Origin: Clavaria fumosa | Taxonomy: Eukaryota > Basidiomycota > Agaricomycetes > Agaricales > Clavariaceae | NCBI GenBank assembly: GCA_951802425.1 | Contig: OX637802.1 | Span: 2,790,001-2,854,000, forward strand | Direction: 5' to 3' | Length of the DNA stretch: 64,000 nucleotides | In this document: positions 25,443 to 40,998 of the stretch, one piece after another | Layout of the letters: each line of letters begins with the position of its first letter | Position numbering within the stretch: the first letter of the stretch is position 1 | Translations under genes and position numbers: made by a program | Notes under the pieces: generated by a model | Database searches by the model: none | The model's input: the letters and a program-made list of their open reading frames with translations, nothing else | Told to the model about the DNA's origin: nothing

Positions 25443-28400
25443 TTAGATTGGCTCCAGTTGACAACTACTTCTAAAAATCTTCCTTGCATGTCCTTCAAAT
25501 CTTTCCCATACCACCTCCTGCTTGTGAGCATAACATGCCAGCCCACTCCTTACATTTCTTTCATTCATTGCTATTTGCTCCCATTGATCTTTCTTGTGCT
25601 TGAAAAATGCGGCTGTCCACTTCATTTCCTGCTGAAGCAAAGTGACTTCCTCATCCCAGCGATTGAACCTTGCACTTGCTCTCAACCAAACCACTCTGTA
25701 GACTAATCATTTGTCAATTTTTCATTCATGACATACCACACCATCCACTCACATTCCTTCATTCTCTCACTGCATTCTCCTTTGTTCATCCCACTATCCA
25801 ACCTCCACAACCAGGATAGTTTCTCTGATTGCTGACCAATCCTGTTTTCTTCGATCATGTCCCCAGGCATTTTCAAGTCATCTTTTGAGATGTCCTGATA
25901 CTTTGGATCCAGGGAACCCAGTCTCTGGGCTGCAGCTCGAGCCCTTTTATATTCCCTGACTGCCTGCTGTACCTGTGACTCCATGGAGTGCACTTGACTC
26001 CAAGCTCTGGTAGCAAGTTGTTGACTCTTGCACTTCTGGACCTGAACAATTGATATCTCATTGCTGGTATTAAAATGATCAATGAGCCCACCTTTTCTCT
26101 GAATATAAGAGACTTCTCCCCCAAGGCAATCCTAAGTTTTTCAAGGGCATCATTCATTTGTCCAACCCAGAGTTTCGCTTCACATGCAGCCATGTCTTCC
26201 AAACCACTTTCCATGTGATTCTCGCCACCCATGTTTGATGGAAGGAATATAGTCATCGCCTCAGGGTGAAGCCCATTGCTGTCATCCTCCCACTCATCAG
26301 CTGTGCCCAGATCATTGTCCTCGATCTCGCTTTCATTCTCCTGGTACAATAGATGGTTTTCTCCCAAGTCAATAGCCTTGCCCATGAAGAGAGTCGAGTC
26401 AGACCAGCATTTCTCATATTTTGTAATCCTGATTTGAAGGCACCTTCTTTTCTCCTCAAGCTCTCTTTGCTGGGATGTTAAAGGTTTTCTCAGTGTCTTT
26501 GTATATGCTGCTAATGATGCTCTAGTGGTATGTGAATGTAAATCGCAAAGAAATACACGTCATAATGAGAACTTACTGTTCATTTTCCAACTGTATGCCT
26601 AAAGCTAGAAGACTGGCACCACCAGATAAATCACCTGCGTTCTGTTCCTTCTGTGATAGCTCTAGTTCAATTTCTGCACAGCTAGGGGCTTCAAAGCACT
26701 TCAATCAAAAGCAAAAAGGGGTAAGAAATGGCCAACCATTTGTTTTTGCAACATCATATATTCTGAGCAAATCTCCTCGCTCAGTCATTGCTCTTTCCTC
26801 CAATTGCCTTCACTCTGATACCCATGTATGGCTGATTCTAGCTGTCAATTCATCCAGAGCTGATTTAGTTTCTGCCTGTTGCTGTTGTGCATTCTTCCAC
26901 TTCGTAAGGATTGAATGTGCTTTGTTTTAAACACATCAAAAAAATATCTATGACCATAAGAACACATACTTACATGCTTTGATCATCTTCTTCCAATTAG
27001 AATCATTCATGTGGTTGTCGAGAACCTCCTGTCGATGAGCTTGAGACATTCCTCTGGTATGGCTGGCTGCTTTGCCAAGGGTTGACCAGAGACTTTCCAA
27101 AATCTCGCCATCCAATTGCCCCACACCTTGAACAAAGTTCAAGGAGAAAAGTGCAAAGCACTCCTTGATATGTGCTCCCAAGTGAAATTTCCCTACTGTT
27201 GTGATAATCTTCAGGCCATCATCGAGATGCAGGTATTTGCTTGCTTCAACTCGGTCCCGAAAGTGTCTTCCCCATTCACATCCTATGTCATAGACAAAAA
27301 GCACCTTCTTGATGACATTTACTCTCTGAAGGGCTTGGCAAAGTGAATAATCAATGTTTGCCTGCCTGAAAAAACAAAACTTAGCCCAGACACCTTGAAG
27401 ATTATAAGTCTTACCTCTCTCCCTTCTGAAAATCAACGAAGCTGTGTGGATAAAAGCATCCATGACGTGCACAAGCACATACTCCGCCTCCAGTTGCTCA
27501 TAGGTGATCTCGTTTTTGTCCACTATGACCGTTCACCTGGGTAATTGCTCGATGATTGTGACATCTTGGTTTCTATAGAATGTTGTCAACAAATATCCTG
27601 AATGGTGTCCAACTTGAAGGGTCACCTGTTTTACTTCGACAGATGCAGCAATGTGAGCTTGGTAGGGTTTATCCTGGACCATAAAACCTCTTCCATCACT
27701 TAAGGAGACATCACCCTCAGAGCATTTCGACTTCACATGCTCCAGTTTAAAATTTCCATCAGCTACGATAGATTGGTGATAAATGCTACTGTAATTTTTA
27801 ATCAATTTCTGCATTTGGAAAAAAAATTAATGAACTTACGGATTCATGGATTCTTTCACCTCTTCAACTGCCACATTTATTCCAGGTTGAGGGCAGGTAG
27901 GGCAAAAAAGTGCAAGGTCACCAGGTGTCTGCTCTTGCTCAGGATGATGTGCAAATCCTGCCCTCTTAAGCATTTCCAGATGCCTCCACTGTCTTGAGAC
28001 CCTCATGAGTTCACGGTAACGATCCTGAAAACCTTTGGGGTTAGGATGTTGTATCTAATCAGGAGGTTTTGCTACTTACTGGGATTGAAGAGGGAAATCC
28101 ACTATTAGTCATTCTCTGCAGCTTTGAGTAGAAGCTTCGTGCAGCAGTTTTGCACTCCATAACATCGATATGAAACAACTTGAGGACATCAAATGTGAAT
28201 GCAGTTGAGGGCCTCTGAAGACTGGCAGGGAAAAAGCACATCCGAAGCAGCTGGAGATGATTAGATGGTGCATTTGGACAGATGCACCATTTCACTGGAT
28301 GCTTGAAAACACCAGAGCTGGTTATGAATGTTATTCCATGAGTCTGTTGAAAGCTGTCCACCCCTGGCAGCAGTTCTTCCAGAGACTCATCATCATCAGA

Positions 28401-29079
28401 CTCATCCCCATCCCAGATTCTTCGTTCATCAATCACAGTGTGAGGAAGTTCAGCATGGTATCCAGGGCACAAATTGCTGCCATGGCCAAGATTGATGGAA
28501 AGCCCCATATCTCCAAGGTTGCTCCTGTCAAAAAATGTTCCTGTCCATTTTTTGATTTGATGGAATGGATGGCGTTGATGTTGCAGAAGGCAGCAATCAA
28601 GGCAGACGAGTTGGGTGCTGTACAAACAGTCAAAACACCAGTATAAAGCCAAGGGTTTGTGACAGAGCATGCAGTTCTGGTTTTCAGGAGGAGCTTCAAA
28701 CTCCATTAATTCAGAGAGATGCAGATTGCATGCATTGTCCTTCCATTCTTGAAGGAAATCATTTTGTGTCTGCAGAATGTCAATGTAAATCAAAATTGGT
28801 CAGAATTAATTCAACTACCTTCCCCTTTCTTGGCCTTTTTGAATTTGAATCTGAACTTTCCTGTCCAGGCAGTATGTCTTCCTTCCCAAAATCCAAATTT
28901 TCATACAGATGGCTGGGCTCCCTTGCTCATTTTTTAGGTTGAGATGGGGATTGAGAACCTGCTCTAGTGTTATGAGTGATCTGCTGATCTTTTTTCCTGA
29001 CCTTCCTCCCCCTTGAGAGCTTTTTTACTGTGTATGTTCTCTCTACTGCTTGTCCTTCTTTCCCAATGACTGACCGCAT
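25443..29079 (-). CDS. KDZ (Kyakuja-Dileera-Zisupton) transposase with CxC2 cysteine cluster
   Basis: Predicted DNA transposase. ATG at 29079-29077; stop at 25445-25443. Order from the N-terminus: Lys-rich basic segment; CxC2-type cluster (CMLCHKPLALYWCFDC ... CLDCC ... HGSNLCPG, about 28.7-28.4 kb); the conserved DRYRELMRVSRQWRHL block and CPTCPQPGIN (28.02-27.85 kb); the core KDZ domain with ADGNFKLEHVKSK (27.75 kb), YDIGCEWG (27.3 kb), GKFHLGAHIKEC and GEILESLWSTLGKAASHTRG (27.1 kb); C-terminal WLRASARFNRWDEEV motif. The acidic residues in ADGN, YDIG and GEILE are candidate catalytic ones (inference). Introns were inferred at 28.82, 28.08 and 27.83 kb, among others. One in-frame TGA (28930-28928) interrupts the N-terminal basic segment, probably from CGA; the rest looks open. 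Confidence 0.93.
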
Positions 29080-29706: not shown

Positions 29707-30786
29707 TCAGACAATATTATACATCAAACGTGGCAACTTCCATATACCATCCACAATGGCCGGAGTTCCGTACAACAGGCGAGTGGCCCATCCCGTCGGG
29801 CCCTTTGGCAAGGTTGCATCACCCAAGCCAGAGGGTTTCTTGTCAGCCCAACCACAAGGACAGCTTGCCTGGTAACTGCCCGATTTGCTGTCCAGTAGCT
29901 TGAATGTGAGGGTCTGAATTGCGTAACACTTCGGGCACTGGAGGGCGACAGCATCACCGAATGGGCAGAGTTGGTGGTGAACCCATATGTATTCCAAGGC
30001 GAATCTGTGAGACAAAAGAAGGATGGAGGTGTGGGCACCAAGACCCTCCTCCTCCTTGAGAAGATCTGGCAGAATTCGGAGGATTGAGAAACATTCGATG
30101 AAATTTTTGATGATAAGTTTTGTGAGGAATGGAATAGCTAGATGGGGAAAGAAATTGGCTTGGCCAAAGCCAATGACGTGATTGAAATATGCACTGGGCA
30201 TCATCAGCATTGGAAGCAGGGGTGGGGCCAAGACATACCTTTGAGCAAAATCCGTCACTGCTTTGCACGACGCCGCGTTCTCCCAAACTCCGCCACAAAC
30301 CTTGAGGACAAGAAGTGAATGTACTTCCTGTGCAAACTGAAGGAGATCTTGCCCAAAAATTTGAGCCAGAAACTTTTGAAAAGGTAGACTACATCAGTAA
30401 GCAACCATTTGATGGTATGGATGAGCTTACGCTTTCAACTTGGATTCCTGAGTTATTAGCACAATGGAGGTCACCATTCTCAGGATTGGCGTGGGTAAAC
30501 AGGAATACGACGAGCCTCCGGACTCCAAATCTGTTTGGAGCAATCAGCTGCGTTCAATTGTAATAAAACGGACTCACTGTTGAAAGCTTTTGATGATATC
30601 CTTGAGAACTCTCTGATGCTTGGCCAATGATCTTGGATTCGCTGCATCAATATCCAAGACTACCTCTTTGGTAAATAACATCCTTCTTTCAGATATGCTG
30701 GCGAACCAGCCGGCCACATCAGCAACCCTGCACAATACTTTTTTGCACTTGTGAGAGCTCATGCGAGCTCGTACGAGCTCGTACAA
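29707..30786 (-). CDS. Unknown protein with zinc-ribbon-like Cys motif
   Basis: Not recognised. Two reading segments: 30786-30574 (VADVAGWFASISERR, RSLAKHQRVLKDIIKSF) and 30340-29707. The second contains LQCPKCYAIQTLTF ... YQASCPCGW (29.93-29.84 kb), a Cx2C-x17-CxC pattern that could bind one zinc ion. Between them, 30573-30341 must contain at least one intron, or the gene is damaged; I could not fix the join. It ends with a stop at 29709-29707. The gene lies in the same orientation between the KDZ transposase and the Lys-rich gene, so it is likely cargo of the 20.8-kb element. The N-terminal start at 30786 is a guess: the preceding 70 bp carry GAGCTC-rich short repeats. Confidence 0.45.
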
Positions 30787-31067
30787 GCGGAAAAAGTGCG
30801 AAAAGCTGACAAGTCAACAAGTAACCTACATTTGGCCAAAAGTTGGCTTGGTTGTCTTCGCCAACAAGTAAGTAAGTAGGAAAAGGCAACAGAAAGTTTG
30901 ACAAAGGCATAAAAGCGATATAAGTCCAAAAGTAGCGAGCAACATTTTCCACCACCACCCCAATTTCCGCAGAAAGACCGCACGAGCTGAGTCACAACAT
31001 AAATGTGAGGGGAAGATGAAAACTGACGAGATGAGCATAACTACCGTGTTACAGCATTGCCCGGGCT

Positions 31068-33463
31068 TTAAGGACTACTCATGGGCAAAGCTGCCCGTCC
31101 CTCAACCAGAATCGACATATCCCCGACTCTCACATGCTCAGACTCAAGCACGGTGTCATAGTACTCCAAAATAGTATTCCACCAGTCAGCCGTCTTGTTA
31201 AAATTTTTGTTGTACTGCCTAACCCACGTATTGCAGGACTTGGCACAAAAATTGGTTGAGGGGGCATAGACACCAGTTCGGTAGGATCGAACCACTTTCT
31301 CGTACTGCAACGTGCTCCATGAACACTGGAAAGGGCTGCGAAAGCTGAGACAGTGGCTTACGGCTGTGAGAATGAGTACGAACAGACCTCGGGGTGGCCC
31401 GAAGTCATACGCTGTGTCCTGGATGTCTTGAAGGAATCGGGAGCCAACACTAATCAAAAACTTGCTCTTTAAGAAACCGCGAGGTTTCTGAGATAAGGAA
31501 TGAGTGGGATGAAGTAAAAAATGAAAGGAATTTACCTTGTAATCTGGACTATCACCATCCCATACACCATCCTGTGGAACTGGCGTCTCATAGAAAACCG
31601 GACTTCCATGGGTACTACAAAACCATTTCACCCAGTTCGCAATCTCGGCTACTGAGTACTTCTGCAATAAAAAGTGTTGCTCGACAGATTCCTTCACTGC
31701 ATCGTGGATCTTGCCTCGTTTTTCAAGTATGCGTTGATAGCCCTGTATATGGGACTTAGATTGTGTTTAATGGCTGTAGCGGAAAGACTCACAATGCTGA
31801 ATAAGACATCATCCGTTTCGACTGTAATTTTGAGGTGGGGCCAGACGTTTTCAAAAGCCCGGCGAGAGATCTTGAGAAACGTAGAAGACGTCTTTACAAA
31901 GTGATCGAACGGCTCTTCGGATGCATAGAGGGCATTGAACAGCGTAGCAAGGTACTTGGCTTTCAAAGATGATAGTACGGGAGATAAAAGACTTAAACTA
32001 TTGCCGCCTTTTGGCATGATTGCAGCGCGACCACGATCAGGAGGGGAATCGATGCTCGCATCGCTGCCTTGTTGGGCAAGCTTCTTTTGCAGACGAGGCT
32101 TGTTCACTCCTTGGTCTATGGGCTTCATAATTTGTTTGCCTTGCTTGCTAGATGGCATGCGGGGTTTGACAGGGCGGCGAATCACAGTTACAGAAAGTGC
32201 AGAGTCGGAGTCAGAGTCGTCGCTGTCTTCTGAGACAGGAGAGACGAGCTAAAATGATCAGATTCAGTATAGATAATATAATAACGACATATGGCAAGCA
32301 CACCATATTCTTTCTTGCTGGATTGCGCTTATCCGGGTTTGCCTTCGCAAGTTGGATGTTTGCGGCTTTGCGATCAAACTTGGGCGAAGGGGGAAAGTCG
32401 GGTCGAGTCGAAAGCGCTGCTTCATCGTCCATCTTCTCCGCTACCTCAACAGCATGCCTCTTCCTGGACTTCTGCTTCCTGAGCCATGCGGTGTTCAAGC
32501 CAGAGGCGACTGTGGCGCCAACTCTGTTATCGTTGATCAATGCATGTTGTCCATATTAGGACAAATATCGCACCCGTCCTGAGCCCCACTGGCACTGGCA
32601 GCGACTCCCCTCTTGGCTTTGATCTTGTGTTTCTTCTTGACAATTTCATCTCGCAGCTTGGACCGCACTTTCTTTTTCTTCTAGGTGTAACTGTGAGTTC
32701 ATAGACTTGCATATTTTATGAACCAGACTGACCTCGCCATGCTTCTTCCTTGGATACGTATTAGCGTTATCGGTCTCCAACTCCTCACCACCATTGTTTG
32801 TCACCGCTTCGTCTCGCAGCTGGGTCTGCGACTTCTTGTTATTCTGGACATAACAGTGAGTTTCTAGTGTGTACTTCATAAGCCAAAACTGACCTTGACA
32901 CGGAGTTTCTTCATGGACTCTAGCTCTTCACCATCGCTATTCACGTCATCACCATCCTCCGTGCCACTGTTCCCATTGCTAGCACCGACTTTCATATCTG
33001 ATTGTCGCCTAATGCGGCATCGCTGCTCCTGCACTTCAACAAACGATTCGTCTGCCTCAACCTCTGCAAGCTCCTCCTTCGCGGCTTCAGCCTCAGTGGC
33101 CTTCCTTCTTTTTTTGACTTCCTTAGCTTCTTTGGCTGCCTTAGTCTCTGCCGCCTTTACTGCCTTTGCACGTATCCCAACAGGATCTTCATTTCGTCCA
33201 CGGCGCTTTGGCAACAGTGAGCATGGGGGTGGATTGTTATTTTGCCTTGTCTGGATCAACAACAGTTTATCAAGCAACAATGGCTTTAATTAGAGACTTC
33301 GAACCTTTTTTCCAGGTATGTCCTCTGTATTGGTAAAGTCACATCCCCTTTTTTTGACCCTTGCTTCATTAGCGAGCGGCGAAGTATCTGGCGGTGTACC
33401 GGCACTAGGAGGTGCACCTTTAGGTGCAGCAGGTGCCTTCTTCGAGCTGCCCTTTCGAGGCAT
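31068..33463 (-). CDS. Unknown Lys-rich, low-complexity N-terminus protein of the 20.8-kb element
   Basis: Not recognised. Start ATG 33463-33461 (MPRKGSSKKAPAAPKG), stop 31070-31068. Six or more exons joined by short introns: Ala/Lys/Glu-rich exon at 33220-32893 (ETKAAKEAKEVKKRRK), small repeated charged exons each with a LRDE or LRVK core (32850-32740, 32680-32530), a basic exon at 32515-32310, then a Ser/Asp-rich linker. The folded C-terminal half (32060-31070) contains KAKYLATLFNALYASEEPF, WPHLKITVETDDVLFSI, EIANWVKWFCSTHGSPVFYE and a final VRSYRTGVYAPSTNFC ... WWNTILEYYD block. The nuclear-looking basic N-terminus suggests a DNA or chromatin role (inference). It starts 118 bp from the divergent Plavaka gene. 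Confidence 0.6.
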
Positions 33464-33581
33464 ATTGATTGGGTGTCGAGTGAATGGAGGTCAAGTGGAA
33501 AGAGGTTTGACAAACAAATACGGTGGATCAAGATTTGTAAGTCCGTCACAAATGCGACTCCACATTGTACACTTACGCTCC
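33464..33581. promoter_or_regulatory. Divergent intergenic promoter region
   Basis: Only 118 bp separate the ATG of the minus-strand Lys-rich gene (33463) from the first in-frame ATG of the plus-strand Plavaka transposase (33582). Both promoters must share or overlap this space, which allows joint expression. No clear TATA box seen. Confidence 0.5.
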
Positions 33582-36500
33582 ATGAACTATGCCCCTCATA
33601 TGCGCCTTTCTATAATGTTTCTAGACTACCGTTGCCCTGTTAAAAGCTGCCCAAAAGAATGCAAATCCGCTCGTGGTCTCACTCAACATGTCAATGCCTT
33701 TCACCGCCAACCGCCTTCCACATCTTCCCGACGCAGTCAATTGAACACGACTACTCAAAGGTGGACGCATCCTCATCTCACAGGTGAGCAATCTTTTCAT
33801 TTGGATGGCTCTTTGACTAATGAGGTGCTCAGCTTGTACATGTGATAAGGATGGCTGTTATATATCACCAACCACTCCGCCTCCTCCTCGTAAACCTCTG
33901 GATGCAACATCCGAAAACCCATTTCATCCATTTGAAGATCGGCTCTCTTTCGAGTTCGCTTATTTCCACTTCTCTCAACAACAAAGTTCGGGAACAGCAA
34001 TCGATCGAGCCCTGCGGCTCTGGGCAGCCCAATCGGCAAAAAACGGCTTCGATGATGTACCCTGGAAGTCTGCCGATGACATGTACAAATCAATTGATCA
34101 GATTCGGCAGGGCAACAACCCTTGGAAGACAGTCTCTTTTCGGTATCAAGGCCATGTAACTAAAGATTCACCGAAATGGATGACTGAAGATTTTATCCTT
34201 CTCACCCGTAATATACGTCGTCTTCTCCATGAGCAGATTGTGTGCCCTGATTTTCATGGCCACTGGGACTATGTCCCATTTATTGAATTTAACGATGCTG
34301 GAGATCGAGTCTGGACAAATCTTATGTCCGGTGACTGGGCTGCAAAAGAGGCGGTACGTATTGTATATGCATGCACATTACTGATCTCAATGGATCGGCA
34401 GGATGAAGTTTCTAAGGACCCATCAACTCATGGTGCCATGCTCATAAGCATAGTTGCAGGAAGCGACAAGACTGTTGCGTCTGTTGCAACCGGTCATCAA
34501 GAGTTTCATCCGCTTTATATTAGTCCAGGAAATATCGATAATCCAACCAGACGAGCTCATGGTATCGGTATCCTACCATGCGCCTTTCTCCCCATCCCTA
34601 AAGGTGCAATTTCTTGGCCATGTACTGTCCATTTGCACTCAAGATATCCTGAATTTGTTTTAAGCTGGTCCCCAGGAGCGCTCGACTGTTGAATACCAAC
34701 AATTTTGCCGCCAACTATATCACGCTTGTCTTGCTTATATTTACACCCCTCTCAAGCCCGCAATGAGTTTTCCCGAGGTCATTCAGTGCCCTGATGGGCA
34801 TTTCCGCCGAGCAATCTTCTCAATTGGGCCTTACATTGCCGACTATCCAGAACAAGTATGGCTTTCTGGAATTGTCAGTAACTGGTGTCCAACGTAATAT
34901 AGTCCGCCGCTTTTTTGGCTTTAAATTCATTTATATATCACTACACAGATGCGATGCCCACCCTCACAACTTGGATGATATCCATGCCCATCTGCGAACA
35001 CATGAGAAGGCTGACTTCCTCTTGGAGACATTTGACTCAGGAATTGTTTGGGATGAGTATGGGATACGACCTGATGTCGTTGTGAGTGAATTCCCTGTCC
35101 TCTCAGACCATTCGATGAGGATTTCTTCAGCCCTTTACCCATGACTTCCCACATGCCAATATCCACGAACTTATCACACCTGATCTACTCCATCAACTCA
35201 TCAAAGGCGTGTTCAAAGACCATTTGGTATCATGGGTCCAGGAATATTTAATCCTTCACCATGGAAAGGCTCATGCCCTCAGAATCATTCAAGACATTGA
35301 TTGGAGGTGGGTGTCGATCGCTTGACCCTAATTGATGACTGATTAGAATTAGAATATCGGCTGTCCCACCATATCCGGGGCTTCGCCGCTTCCCAGATGG
35401 TCGCGACTTTCATCAATGGACAGGCGATGATTCCAAAGCGTTGATGAAGGTGAATTCTTTTATTTTCTTCATAACATGTTTAGTTATTGGTACTCTAAGG
35501 TATACATTGCGGCAATTCATGGTCATGTACCAGGGCAAATGGTTCAATGCCTTTCTGCCTTTATGAATTGTTGCTATATAGCTCGACATAATACTATCAC
35601 AACGTCAGAGATCACTCGCTTTCGGCATTACCTTGCAGATTTCCACCGACTGCGACAAATTTTTATCACAACTGGCATTCGAAAAGACTTTGCCCTTCCA
35701 TGCCAACACTCTTTAATGCATTACCCCAACGCAATCGAGCGCTTTGGTTCTCCGAATGGTACCTGCACTTCGCAGACTGAAGCAAAGCATAAAAAGGCTG
35801 TGAAGGACCCGTGGCGTCGATCTAATCGTAACAAACCATTGCCTCAAATGATTCTATCTATCACTCGTTCAGACAAGCTCATGGCACTGCAACGTGTCTT
35901 CAGGCAGCGAGGTATGCTAGATGGAAGTGTAACCAACTACATGGCCCAGCAGTTCGCAGGTGAACCACCATCTATCCGGCCTTGGACCGGTGCATCCGTA
36001 GAATCCAGTGATGCATCGGATAGTGATGGCGATGAAGGGGACCACGACATAGAGCCGGTTTCAGGCCCAAGAGCCAAGACTAATATCTGGCTTGCATCCC
36101 GACATCGTACATTCTAACTGTGTTTGAAGACATGTGCTAATCTCTGCTTCAGAGACCAAATATCCCACCAATCTCACCAAACTTTCTGCCTTCATTCATC
36201 GGCCTGGCTTACCCCATGCTCTTCAAAAATTTATCCATATGCAAAACCACCCCAACTCTCGCCACCAGGTGCCGCTTGACAATTCATTTGATGGACCAAT
36301 TCGCATTTTCCATTCTGCTAGGGTGGAATTTTATGCACCTAGCGATCTTTGCGGAACAGGTGGGATGCATCGAGAGGTTATCCATGCAAACCCCAATTAT
36401 GGGGGTTCACCTCGCTTTGACACTGTTTTTGTCGCTGTTGGTGATGACACAGAGGCTATGAGTGGGCTCCTGGTTGCCCGAGTATGGCTCCTCTTTGCTT

Positions 36501-36808
36501 ACTTTGATCCTTACCACGGCAAGGAAATCCCATGTGCTCTTGTGACTTGGTTTACCCATCCAAACGACAGCCCTGAACGCAATGAGGAGACTGGCATGTG
36601 GAGGCTGCAACGTGAGCAAGACGAAGATGGTGAGCCTCCTGTCCAGGTGATCCACCTTGAGACAATTCTTCGCGGTGCACATCTTCTACCTTGCTATGGC
36701 AAAGGATTTCTTCCAGTGGAGTTGAAACACACTGACGCTCTCGATGCATGGAATTCCTATTTTGTTAACCCTTTCATTGACCAGCATGCTCATGAACTCC
36801 TAACGTAG
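33582..36808 (+). CDS. Plavaka transposase (CMC-like), apparently intact
   Basis: Predicted DNA transposase. It starts with a C2H2 zinc finger (YRCPVKSCPKECKSARGLTQH, H near 33695); ATG 33582 or 33615 both possible. Exon 1 splices from about 33781 into CTCDKDGCY at 33835. Plavaka hallmarks follow: NPFHPFEDRLSFEFAYFHF, DDMYKSIDQIRQGNNPW, CPDFHGHWDYVPF, LMSGDWAAKEA, then after an intron DPSTHGAMLISIVAGSDKT, PLYISPGNIDNPTRRAH and CAFLPIPK. Later blocks include HDFPHANIHELITPDLLHQL, GHVPGQMVQCLSAFMN and YPNAIERFGSPNG, ending in DLCGTGGMHRE and ARVWLLFAYF; stop at 36806-36808. The acidic residues in SGDWA, GSDKT and the later D/E blocks are plausible catalytic ones (inference). I found no in-frame stop in the exons, so it may be functional. 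The 3' end faces the PHD gene 86 bp away. Confidence 0.93.
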
Positions 36809-36894
36809 CTTTAACGACTATGTCACTTTTCTGCACTTCCCGTAGCTTTTACCGAATTTTTAGGCTTTTTAGGCTTTTTTAACTTACAACTGTT

Positions 36895-37645
36895 TCAAGA
36901 CCATCTACTGGCATTGGCATAATATAAACTTTTCCGCTTTTTCACTTTTTCACTTGCACAAGTCAAAAAGTCAAAAAGTTTATGCACAATTTGCTGATGC
37001 AAGGTGTTGGTGACAGAAATGTATGGATCGCCTTGGGTTGGGATCGTGCACAGTCGAATGTTGACGATGGCCAACGAGTTCGTGTTTTGCCGTGCGTAAT
37101 TGCCCCTTAGTGTCGTGGGCTTGATATGCCCAATGACACTTTTGATGGGCTCGCCATTGCGGTAGAGAGGCTGTAATTCAACATTCTGTGTCAATAAATT
37201 TGTGTTGATAAAGATCAGTACTTACATAGAAGGGCTCAGCTCGATTCTCTGAGCCTAAATGACAGCCCATGCAAAAAAATTTGATGTCAGGCTCTTTGAT
37301 GAGCTTGGAGCCTCTGGAAAGATCGAGGCATTTGCTGCACATGGCTCGCTCACAAAAATCGCAGTCCAAGAGATTTCCGCCATCGCCGCAGCTGCAGCAC
37401 CACTGCAAAAGGTCAGTACTATATTAGATGGAGTTAAGTAGTCTGACTTCATCATTTGGGGCTCTGTCACCTGTCTGTGTCCCTTGATCAGCTCGATCAA
37501 ATCGACAGAAGAGTCGAGGACTCACCCTAATTCCAATCAGTTGAGCGATAGGCTGCACATTTTGTTTGATGGCAGACGGGTGAAGGGTCACTCTCACACA
37601 TGGAGCACCAGTTGACCTGGATGCCAATTGTTTCGTTCTTGGCAT
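36895..37645 (-). CDS. PHD-type zinc-finger protein with a histone-H3-like N-terminus
   Basis: Probable chromatin reader or histone-tail mimic, 199 residues. Exons (minus): 37645-37526, 37482-37471, 37402-37226, 37185-36895; all phases are 0 and junctions are GT-AG. Residues 1-16 read MPRTKQLASRSTGAPC. Set against the H3 tail (ARTKQTARKSTGG), 8 of 13 positions match, keeping R2, T3, K4, Q5, A7, S10, T11 and G12; K9 is Arg. Residues 45-92 form four CxxC pairs (WCCSCGDGGN, DCDFC, MCSKC, FFCMGC), a PHD-like cross-brace with Cys in the usual His position. The C-terminal ~95 residues (GHIKPTTLRGNYARQN ... YANASRW) are unrecognised. PHD fingers commonly bind unmodified or K4-methylated H3 tails, so self-binding or competition with H3 is an inference to test. 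Confidence 0.8.
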
Positions 37646-38622
37646 TGTGACGGTTCAAGGTCAAAGTGCTTAGCCGCTCAGCCACTCGGTGGTCACGTGA
37701 CTTACACGTAGGAGCAGAATCTTGCCTTATAACAGGTATGAGAGTTTGACAAATTACAAGTAATTATTACAAGTCACATGAAAAAAGTATATGGTCAGGG
37801 CAGAAAGGATACTCAATGTGGCCGGCATTGAATATCCCCGCTACCCCTCCCCTACTACGACATGAATAACTACTTCTACATCGCACAAAAGACAAAAAAA
37901 GGACGACTTGTCAGTGGATGTTTGGTGTGAAGACCGGTGAGTCGGGATGTGTCGAAGACGTGATTGTGCTGGAGGGATAGTCAGTGTCAATGTCAGTAAA
38001 ATAGTAAATGGAAACACACGAAACACCCACATTCCCTGCTCCAGACAAGTGTCAGGTGCGAAGACCTGTGTGTCGGGTGTGAAGACTGGTGAGTCGGGAT
38101 GTGTCGAGGACGTGATTGTGCTGGAGGGATAGTCAGTGTCAATGTCAGTAAAACAGTAAATGGAAATGCACGAAACACCCACATTCCCTGCCCCAGACCA
38201 ACAAATACAAGTGTTGGGTGCGAAGACCCATGTGTCAAGACACGCTTTGCCAGAAGGATTGAGAGTGTCAATATGAGTAAAATGGGAAATGGAAACACAC
38301 CAAAGTGCCTGCGGCCCCAGATCTTCAAGACTGCCAAAGGTCTGTGGCATGTGCCGAGGTGCCCAGCCCTGCCCCAGATCATCAAGACCACTGAGGGTCT
38401 TGGGAGTGAGTGCACCGAGGCACTCACCCCCTGCCCCCAGATTGAAAAAGACCATCGAAAAAGACCACCGAGGGTCTTGGGAGTGAGCGCACCAAGGTGC
38501 TCACCCCCTGCCCCCAGATCGAAAAAGACCACCGAGGGTCTTGGGAGTGAGCGCACCAAGGCGCTCACTCCCTACCCCCAGACCAAAAGACTGCAAAAGA
38601 GATGTTTATGTATCTAAGGTAG
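37646..38622. repeat. Two families of short tandem repeats, GC-rich
   Basis: From about 37935 a unit near 152 bp (GAGTCGGGATGTGTCG ... AACACCCACATTCCCTG) occurs twice, with a third diverged partial copy to 38300. From 38320 to 38590 four units of about 62-77 bp run on, each ending in CCCCAGAT and holding GGGTCTTGGGAGTGAG plus a hairpin (GAGTGAGCGC, 7-nt loop, GCGCTCACTC). The open frames here are repeat artefacts. It lies between the PHD gene start and the nested inverted-repeat unit. Confidence 0.75.
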
Positions 38623-38803: not shown

Positions 38804-40998
38804 TGGAAATATTTTAAACGAATGATCACGTGACCGTTGGATCCCGCACAACATGGTCACATGGTCTGACTACGTTGCACGTGATATGGGGGCAATCCCT
38901 GCCAACACAGGGTTGTTTGTAAATGTTGTGACCTCCCACCACTGACCCAAAAGTTGCGACGAAGTTGCAGGCTTACACAGGCATTTTGAAGCTTAGTTTT
39001 AGTGAGACAAAATGATCACAGATTTAATTTGGGTAGATTGTCCAAGATGAAATTTCTAATTTCTCCCTCAATATTTAAATACGAGCACTGGTGGTGTAAT
39101 ATAAAATTATTATGATCTGGAAGTTACCATAAATGGATGCAGATATCTGTGTGCCATTTCCTGCATTCCTCAGCCACTTTTGAGCTTAGTTTTAGTGAGA
39201 GATATTGTTCCTATGTATGTTGTCCATATTCCCCAGCAATCAGAATATTTTTACAATTTTTATCTCACCAAATATATGCAATTTGGTATTGTACTCATCA
39301 TTTTCACCTTTCTGACCTCTCTATTGAGTTCCCTTGCTTGCAAGGGTTCTTACCGCCCCATAATTCGTGTTTACTATTAACCAACCTGCCACATAAGTAC
39401 ATACATTGCCAAACAAGACTGTGTGACATGTTGTGCATCCGATGTGACTCCATCTGCCATGCATATCTACCTTTCTTTATCCTGTTGACAAATGTCCCCA
39501 GTCTGGGGGTCAAGCCTCCCTAGCCAGTCATCCTCTGAACAAAGCCATCTGATGAGATATTTTGAATGGCTCATTGTTGAAATCTCACAGTAGTCATATT
39601 GTTGCATGACTGGAACTGTGCAAGAGTGCCACATATAAGTTGAAGAGGCTTAGGGTCCCAGAAGGTGGAGTACCAAAGTTGATGATAATGTGTGGGATTG
39701 TTTAACCTTGTGCTCAATAATCTGTGAATGCATATGCTGCTGTTAGTGGATGCTGCACCACTTGACAAACTGTTGTATTCCCAACTGCAACCCCAATCCT
39801 GTAACTTGTTGATGCTGCCTCAATCAGAATGACAGATTCTCCTAGCCCATCCAGCTGTGATGCTTGTGTTTGCTTGAGTTTGACCAGAATATATGCTGGA
39901 AGGTATTTCAATTGGATGATAGACTCATTGCAGAATGGAGGCTCTTCAGGGGAGAATGATGTCTGTGATTTCCCCTTGGGCACCATTGACAATGTCCAGG
40001 TCTGTTGCTAAGTTCTCTGTACCATGATTTTCATCCCTACAGTGATTTTGACTTGCATGAGGAGACCTTTCAGCTTTTGGCCACCTTCTCCTCTTCTACA
40101 ATGAACTGTGAGCCCATATTGCTCAGCCCAGGGGTGGATGTCCACCACTCATATCCTCTGCTGTGCAAATGAGAAGCTGCTGCACAGATTTGCTGCACCA
40201 TTTTCAGATGGCCACTTCAATCCATAGCTTCTACACTGCATGTCATGTTGTCACCAGCATAGCATCACTCCAGGGTTCTGCCTAAAAGTCTGTGACTGGT
40301 GAATTGGGATCCCCAATTACCAGAGTCAGTAGCATTTGGAGCTGATGATCCTGAACATTGCCATAGTGCAAATGGGCCAGAAATTCTCTCCATGTCTGAT
40401 CTGTGACATGCATCTGCTATTTAAGAATGACCACCTTGCTAAATTCCTCATATATGGAATGTCCCAGTTGAGTTTCTGGTGAGTCCTTTGCAAGGTGCTT
40501 TTATACCTTTGTTCTCCAAGTCCTATCATTAAGCTGTCTCTTGTTCCTACTTGTAGCATAGCACATTTTTTAATGAACTCTATGTGATCTGTGATGTGGT
40601 GCAAGCAAGGGTTCAGCCGACTGTCAGTCGGCACTTCCTAGTTTGGAAATTCATTCTAATGAGATAAAACAATTCTAGAATTATTTTAAACAGATTGTCC
40701 AAGGCAGAAATTTTAATTTTGACCTTAATAATTTTATATTACACCACCAGTGCTTGTATTTAAATATTGAGGGAGAAATTAGAGATTTCGTCTCGGACAA
40801 TCTACTCAAATTAAATCTGTGATCATTTTGTCTCACTAAAACTAAGCTTCAAAATGCCTGTGTAAGCCTGCAACTTTGTTGCAAACAACCCCGTGTTGGC
40901 AGGGATTGCCCCCATATCATGTGCAATGTGGTCAGACCATGTGACTGTGTCGCGCGGGGATCCAACGGTCACGTGATTGTTCGTTTAAAATATTTCCA
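38804..40998. mobile_element. Nested inverted-repeat unit (~2.2 kb) in the giant element
   Basis: Left arm 38804-39112 and right arm 40727-40998 are inverted copies with near identity (shared: GGAAATATTTTAAACGAA, ATCACGTGACCGTTGGATCC, GGGGGCAATCCCTGCCAACAC, GCTTAGTTTTAGTGAGAC). The left arm has about 40 extra bases. The spacer is AT-rich and holds a decayed helicase. No target duplication could be identified at the outer ends, so whether it moved as a transposon is unproven. Confidence 0.6.
39571..39992 (-). pseudogene. Decayed Pif1-like helicase C-terminal fragment
   Basis: The minus strand reads LPAYILVKLKQTQASQLDG, then QHPLTAAYAFTDY, stop, AQG, stop, TIPHIIINFGTPPSGTLS and LFNLYVALLHSS. 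This is the C-terminal pattern of Pif1-like helicases that are common next to fungal transposons (AYAFTDY-x-AQGQTIP and NLYVALSR). The stops replace Arg and Gln codons (TGA for CGA, TAA for CAA), i.e. C-to-T changes. Upstream minus-strand sequence to about 40640 is open in pieces but unrecognised. Confidence 0.6.

Follow-up and report, generated by a model that had tools for sequence, protein, structure and literature searches.

The ADD finger of DNMT3A is an autoinhibitor released by the histone H3 tail, and histone mimics of the viral and G9a type are short and lie mostly within the protein or at its C-terminus. In the case of BAZ2B, binding of H3 by the PHD finger is lowered by an adjoining H3-like linker (PMC5663869), and an anti-silencing role has been proposed for the TET/JBP enzymes carried by KDZ transposable elements (PMC12730594). 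Here we describe a gene, referred to as the PHD gene, from a 64,000-nucleotide stretch of the Clavaria fumosa genome (assembly GCA_951802425.1, contig OX637802.1, positions 2,790,001 to 2,854,000 of the forward strand; the window, in whose numbering all coordinates are given). Its predicted product begins with an imitation of the N-terminal tail of H3, continues with a PHD-type zinc finger and ends with a predicted caspase-fold protease domain.

The tail of the window copy (MPRTKQLASRSTGAPCVRV...) is read from the ATG at 37645 on the minus strand, and the mimic, MPRTKQLASRSTG, occupies codons 1-13 (37607..37645, minus strand) at the N-terminus of the gene. When the first 13 residues following Met were aligned with H3 residues 1-13 (ARTKQTARKSTGG), eight of the 13 positions were equal. 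Of the 1487 stop-free 14-mers that begin with Met in any of the window's six frames, this tail was the only one with six or more H3 matches, the runner-up having five, and the binomial probability of at least eight matches is 2e-7 per start.

A tight DNA pattern matched just the window copy and one sister, and the family was recovered by protein searches of the genome (48.8 Mb; L-numbers denote its loci and P-numbers denote database proteins). The search with the finger exon only yielded at least 95 matches, while those with three exon-1 types yielded 38, 28 and 37 matches, at places that partly overlap. In 83 of the 95 finger copies, a tail-type exon in the same orientation lay no more than 700 bp upstream. 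The remaining 12 had no tail match; upstream DNA was inspected for two of them (L087 and L088), with no tail found there, and was not inspected for the other ten. The tail types included MARTKQSAKRSSG, MARTKQNPKKTTG, MARTRQSAKRSSG, MARNKQTAQRSTGG, MARSKQTAKRSTGG, MARTKQTAKTSTG and MARTKQTPKKSTGG, several of which, MARTKQTPKKSTGG being an example, are nearer to H3 (MARTKQTARKSTGG) than the window tail is; ARTKQTPKKSTGG and PRTKQSASRSTG are also tail peptide sequences of the family, and single copies deviate, with MAQTKQM in L085 and MVRTHQ in L066. The R2 codon (third codon of exon 1) is TGA in L067, L083 and L084 and CGA in L078 and L081, a C-to-T difference at CpG, as expected of methylated DNA.

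Conservation of the tail was assessed with a scan that required Met and found 36 tail DNAs, of which two belonged to host H3 genes and one was spurious, leaving 33 distinct family tail DNAs; 13 representative tail types were selected by us from these. In H3 numbering, R2, Q5, G12 and R17 did not vary among the 13 types, residue 1 was Ala in 10 and Pro in three, position 4 was K in nine, R in three and T in one, and position 9 was K in three only. Likewise, M1, R3, Q6, G13 and R18 were invariant in the tails of six representative proteins, of which the other five are 25-50% identical to the first. Synonymous differences between subfamilies were saturated (pS 0.76-0.87), and pN/pS, pooled over pairs and uncorrected for saturation, was 0.17 over codons 2-6, 0.30 over codons 2-13 and 0.63 over codons 14-22. 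In a like-with-like comparison of seven subfamilies the ratio was 0.26 for the tail versus 0.35 for the first 25 finger codons, indicating that constraint on the tail is no weaker than on this stretch of the finger. On these codon comparisons, the tail is under selection. Chance likeness to H3 was also considered, and was ruled out by the comparison of 1487 starts, the pN/pS values and the tail exon upstream of 83 of the 95 finger copies.

An earlier note on this DNA had read the N-terminus as mimicry of the H3 tail, a claim borne out by the 8/13 match, by the recurrence of the tail in the genome and by the relatives in the fungi named below. The conservation of RTKQ and STG that it suggested checking was found for R2, Q5 and G12 (13/13 types), and the claim survived, although K4 (9/13) is not strictly kept. 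It had named a start codon past residue 16 as a result that would count against mimicry; Met immediately precedes the tail in 17 of the 18 tail-bearing loci, the exception (L079) being damaged there, which argues at the level of genomic sequence against such a downstream start.

Relatives in other species were sought with alignments that included the tail and may therefore favour tail-bearing proteins, a bias from which the finger-only genome search is free. Tail-bearing predicted proteins found in these profile searches came from Lyophyllum shimeji (MARTKQSADKSTGAPAPRVEL), Mycena crocata (MARTKQTPKKSTGGPAPHKPL), M. alexandri (MARTKQTAPKSTGGPVPKKRL), M. vitilis (MARTKVTAR..., further on QKSTGGKAPRVDL), Suillus subluteus (MARTKIQSTGG) and Cytidiella melzeri (MARTRQTPKKTTGGKAPRKALGG); these relatives span three orders, the Agaricales, Boletales and Polyporales. 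Eleven of the 13 proteins from named species (P0004-P0016) had the tail or part of it, P0013 had none and P0014 is a fragment; seven of the 13 start with MARTK or MARTR, and for P0009, P0011, P0012 and P0015 the gene model is longer or shifted, with either the tail or just the second half of it lying within. The N-terminus is missing from P0001 and P0003 and present in P0002. A profile of 14 database proteins, mostly the named relatives, matched histone H3 in the PDB at E 6e-7, and a profile of six own-genome proteins matched H3 residues 1-33 at E 0.002. No histone family appeared in the Pfam scans, and the profile matches to H3 were confined to its tail.

Another possibility is that the element captured exon 1 from an H3 gene of the host, the tail being a functionless leftover. 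Two host H3 genes (L099 and L101) are interrupted by an intron at or beside the G13 codon, so that their first coding exon spells MARTKQTARKSTGG, nearly the extent of the mimic. However, the residues persist despite saturated synonymous sites between subfamilies, the tail is present in three fungal orders, and in Cytidiella the similarity to H3 runs past that intron position (GGKAPRKALGG), so that a relic is highly improbable and already largely refuted. Simple capture of the host exon, taken as an origin only, is not favoured, since the similarity crosses the intron in Cytidiella and the DNA of the tail departs from that of H3 at numerous synonymous sites.

The tail is joined to the finger by a linker of about 25-65 residues. 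In the window copy, exon 1 (37526..37645, minus strand; 40 codons, MPRTKQLASRSTGAPCVRVTLHPSAIKQNVQPIAQLIGIR) encodes tail and linker and ends at a GTGAGT donor at 37525, intron 1 (37403..37525, minus strand, GT-AG) lies between the tail exon and the finger exon, and exon 2 (37226..37402, minus strand; 59 codons, WCCSCGDGGNLLDCDFCERAMCSKCLDL...FFCMGCH) encodes the finger, in the form WCCSCGDGGNLLDCDFCERAMCSKC...FFCMGCH. The exon 1 frame is open for 159 codons in some copies (L017, L022), and P0002 is stop-free from the tail through the finger; with no in-frame stop in intron 1 in these cases, an unspliced reading would still link tail to finger. Against Pfam PHD the window finger scored 16.0 bits and the family 8.8-19.6 bits, below the cut-off of 24, and no model exceeded its cut-off in the Pfam scans of the family proteins whose scores were shown. 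The C4HC3 zinc-ligand positions are all occupied, with Cys replacing the His ligand, as in the ATRX ADD alignment, and the own-genome family profile (six proteins) matched in the PDB the fingers of CHD4, ATRX (ADD), PHF21A, TRIM24 and AIRE, which are readers of unmodified H3K4. By sequence, the finger is of PHD type and nearest to H3-tail readers, with H3 binding putative, and the PHD-like finger of H3-reading type named in the earlier note is upheld in that these are its nearest fingers.

Two AlphaFold models gave the C-terminal domain a caspase fold, in which His and Cys lie close to where successive long strands end, and the top VIA-align match for both models was an activated SAVED-CHAT filament. 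A motif scan of the own-genome loci showed conserved His and Cys motifs in the family, with L051 (His only), L052 (neither, by pattern search) and L066 (both, in a frame with stops) as exceptions. In the window copy the candidate catalytic His lies in exon 4 (30440..30530, minus strand, LVVFLFTHANPENGDLH) and the candidate catalytic Cys in exon 5 (30239..30372, minus strand, HSLLVLKVCGGVWEN), as located by comparison with sister copies and by motif scan; exon 6 (29707..30193, minus strand) encodes the remaining caspase-fold domain and a C-terminal zinc ribbon (QCPKC...CPCGW), up to the stop codon at 29707. Pfam scans of the family proteins detected no peptidase family. Membership of the CHAT family was not supported by sequence: the 10 CHAT hits of the genome are not at family places, and hhalign with four own-genome CHAT proteins, run on shallow alignments, found no match (E 0.44). 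On the strength of the models, the C-terminal domain is predicted to be a caspase-fold (clan CD) protease; this domain and the zinc ribbon had been missed in the earlier description of the protein, of which the tail and finger stood. A diverged clade (L087, L088 and L094) has no tail that we found and has lost the candidate catalytic Cys (Ser in L094), with the His retained.

As a ligand and a reader of the matching type occur in one chain, the simplest reading is that they meet. The tail is probably a built-in ligand for the finger of the same protein, and we tentatively favour the version, as a whole possible rather than probable, in which this contact would hold the predicted protease inactive until nucleosomal H3 tails at silenced chromatin compete the tail off. 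The released protease might then act on nearby chromatin proteins, H3 possibly among them, and so relieve silencing jointly with the TET/JBP enzyme that many sister elements carry. The loose conservation of K4 and K9 favours a bound shape over a target of modification. Two observations weigh against this proposal. The two AlphaFold models, a check suggested in the earlier note, gave no confident placement of the tail, and the conservation of STGG and R17 extends beyond the usual contact of a PHD finger, making a second partner probable, possibly the protease domain or a host factor. With neither model docking the tail confidently, a switch in cis, self-assembly and a decoy all stand, and both tail-to-finger chains and a decoy acting in trans are serious rivals.

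In self-assembly, the tail of one molecule would sit in the finger of the next, and the resulting chains would bring caspase-fold domains together, leading to activation by proximity. Caspases are activated in this way, the linker joins tail and finger over its 25-65 residues, and the structure matched best by both models is a filament; a common protease fold is, however, not informative on filaments, and we hold such chains to be unlikely. A further reading is likeness to a substrate: H3 tails would be the target of the protease, and the N-terminal mimic would either be processed by the protein itself or report on that cut. Clipping of H3 by proteases is known (PMC9665850) and a finger of H3-reading type is fused here to a predicted protease, but proteases with a caspase fold frequently cleave after Asp, Arg, Lys or Asn, and the tail has no evident cut site and varies between subfamilies at several basic positions, which leaves a substrate role quite improbable.

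The genomic setting of the family identifies the PHD gene as a companion gene of KDZ (Kyakuja-type) DNA transposons. Using 150 listed of 185 KDZ hits, 59 of the 95 finger copies lay within 12 kb of a listed hit, versus a mean of 6.7 in random placements (maximum 15 in 1000), and using all 64 TET/JBP hits, 8 of them below the family cut-off, 41 of the 95 lay within 12 kb of one, versus 3.1 in random placements. Random placement ignores the clustering of transposons, so the better evidence for linkage to KDZ is constant spacing: copies of the window type, the window included, had a KDZ hit 3.66-3.94 kb downstream on the same strand in 14 of 18 cases, and beside most copies of the MARNKQT- and MARTKQTP- types a same-strand TET hit followed about 2.8-3.9 kb downstream, with KDZ at about 4.8-6 kb on the opposite strand. 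In the window, the transposase gene of the element that carries the PHD gene is represented by a CxC2 cysteine cluster (28059..28799, minus strand; Pfam CxC2 E 1.9e-23) and the KDZ transposase core (26948..27532, minus strand; Pfam KDZ E 6e-30). There was no listed PF12851 (TET/JBP) match within 25 kb of the window copy, though many other copies have one nearby.

The presence of TET/JBP, an enzyme of the anti-silencing kind, no farther than 12 kb from 41 of the 95 finger copies is in line with a decoy in trans, in which the tail is displayed to host readers and editors of H3 tails (H3K4 readers, deacetylases, histone chaperones), diverting or recruiting them, while the finger separately anchors on nucleosomes. 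Conservation over H3 positions 1-17 (STGG, R17), a longer stretch than a single PHD finger normally contacts, also speaks for a decoy; on the other side, K4 and K9, the main targets of host enzymes, are not strictly kept and the tail occurs fused to a finger of the matching type, so we find a decoy somewhat doubtful. The persistence of the tail in dozens of diverged copies and in three fungal orders suggests that it is likely either a built-in switch or a decoy against host chromatin. If the tail does act as a switch on its own finger, the protein could be a chromatin-gated protease: the H3 tail would be a safety catch on an H3-reading finger, silent chromatin rich in unmodified H3K4 would open the catch, the caspase-fold domain would cut histone tails or silencing factors at the element, and TET would strip DNA methylation in many sister elements. 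This scheme in its entirety is rather unlikely.

The window copy of the PHD gene is broken, its exon 3 being interrupted by a nested Plavaka element that is younger than this KDZ copy. The inserted element (30717..36999, plus strand; 6283 bp) has the ends CATCA...TGATG and a 2-bp target duplication (CA), and contains a Plavaka transposase (33817-34692, plus strand; Pfam Plavaka E 7e-46). Its extent is marked by the break of homology to the sister copies, which ended at 37000 in all 17 (L034-L050) and resumed at 30716 in L034, which lacks the insertion. By this comparison, part one of exon 3 (37000..37170, minus strand) ends at the insertion and part two (30578..30716, minus strand; 98.1% identity to L034, GTGAGT donor) takes up the gene beyond it. 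The main text of PMC12730594 describes the ends of PlavakaB like those of the inserted element, and KDZ elements as having a 7-bp target duplication and CA..TG termini. The PHD gene as cargo of Plavaka was rejected, given that the insertion has its own ends and CA duplication, that sister homology stops at its edge and that L034 is continuous without it. The view that the gene is transposon-borne was supported by the linkage to the KDZ transposase, and of the former assignment to KDZ/Plavaka only KDZ is retained, since the Plavaka element interrupts the window copy; similarly, within the interval 36895..37645 first ascribed to the gene, 37000-37645 belongs to it and 36895-36999 is the end of the inserted element.

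Long inverted repeats (38804-39117 and 40721-40998; 164 nt at 95%, 80 nt at 89% and 42 nt at 95%, with a 1.6-kb spacer) were observed upstream of the PHD gene. Some of this repeat sequence is also present in sister copies, so the repeats may be part of the 5' region of the KDZ element. A block at 38314-38591, also upstream, was matched many times over by several sister copies, as imperfect tandem repeats would be.

Histone mimicry and anti-silencing transposon genes are known kinds, and the searches of open-access literature yielded no paper on such a protein and no DNA transposon that combines an H3 N-terminus with a finger of H3-reader type and a caspase fold; subscription papers, preprint servers and the founding KDZ paper (Iyer 2014) were outside this coverage. 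If our reading is true, fungal transposons have evolved an imitation of the most regulated 17 residues of chromatin, together with the matching type of reader and a protease domain, and would offer a ready experimental system for the gating of PHD fingers by tails and for the escape of mobile DNA from silencing. With selection on the tail at least as strong as on the compared finger block, the binding partner of the tail is directly testable with peptides.

Of the described systems, the TET/JBP-carrying KDZ transposons (Kojima 2025, PMC12730594) are the same kind of element, with TET/JBP near 41 of the 95 finger copies; the main text of that paper makes no mention of PHD, uses histone four times (two general remarks and two reference titles) and in its section 3.2 has no H3-tail protein. 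SAVED-CHAT proteins and caspases (clan CD) share the fold of the C-terminal domain in both models and the placement of His and Cys, but at the level of sequence no match was found between the family and CHAT or any peptidase family, and the family carries a tail and finger where those proteins have a nucleotide sensor or a death domain. Viral and G9a-type mimics likewise place a short H3-like sequence on a non-histone protein, whereas the one described here is N-terminal, imitates residues 1-17 and is fused to a reader-type finger. By sequence, the ATRX ADD ranks with the fingers closest to that of the family; the family protein differs from DNMT3A and ATRX in being without a methyltransferase and in holding the ligand-like tail within the same protein. 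BAZ2B (PMC5663869) has a PHD finger that recognises the N-terminus of H3 in its unmodified form and is restrained by an H3-like stretch of the same protein; its mimic is a lysine-rich internal linker, whereas that of the Clavaria family is a true N-terminus, in the order ARTKQ...STGG, on a transposon protein with a protease-like domain.
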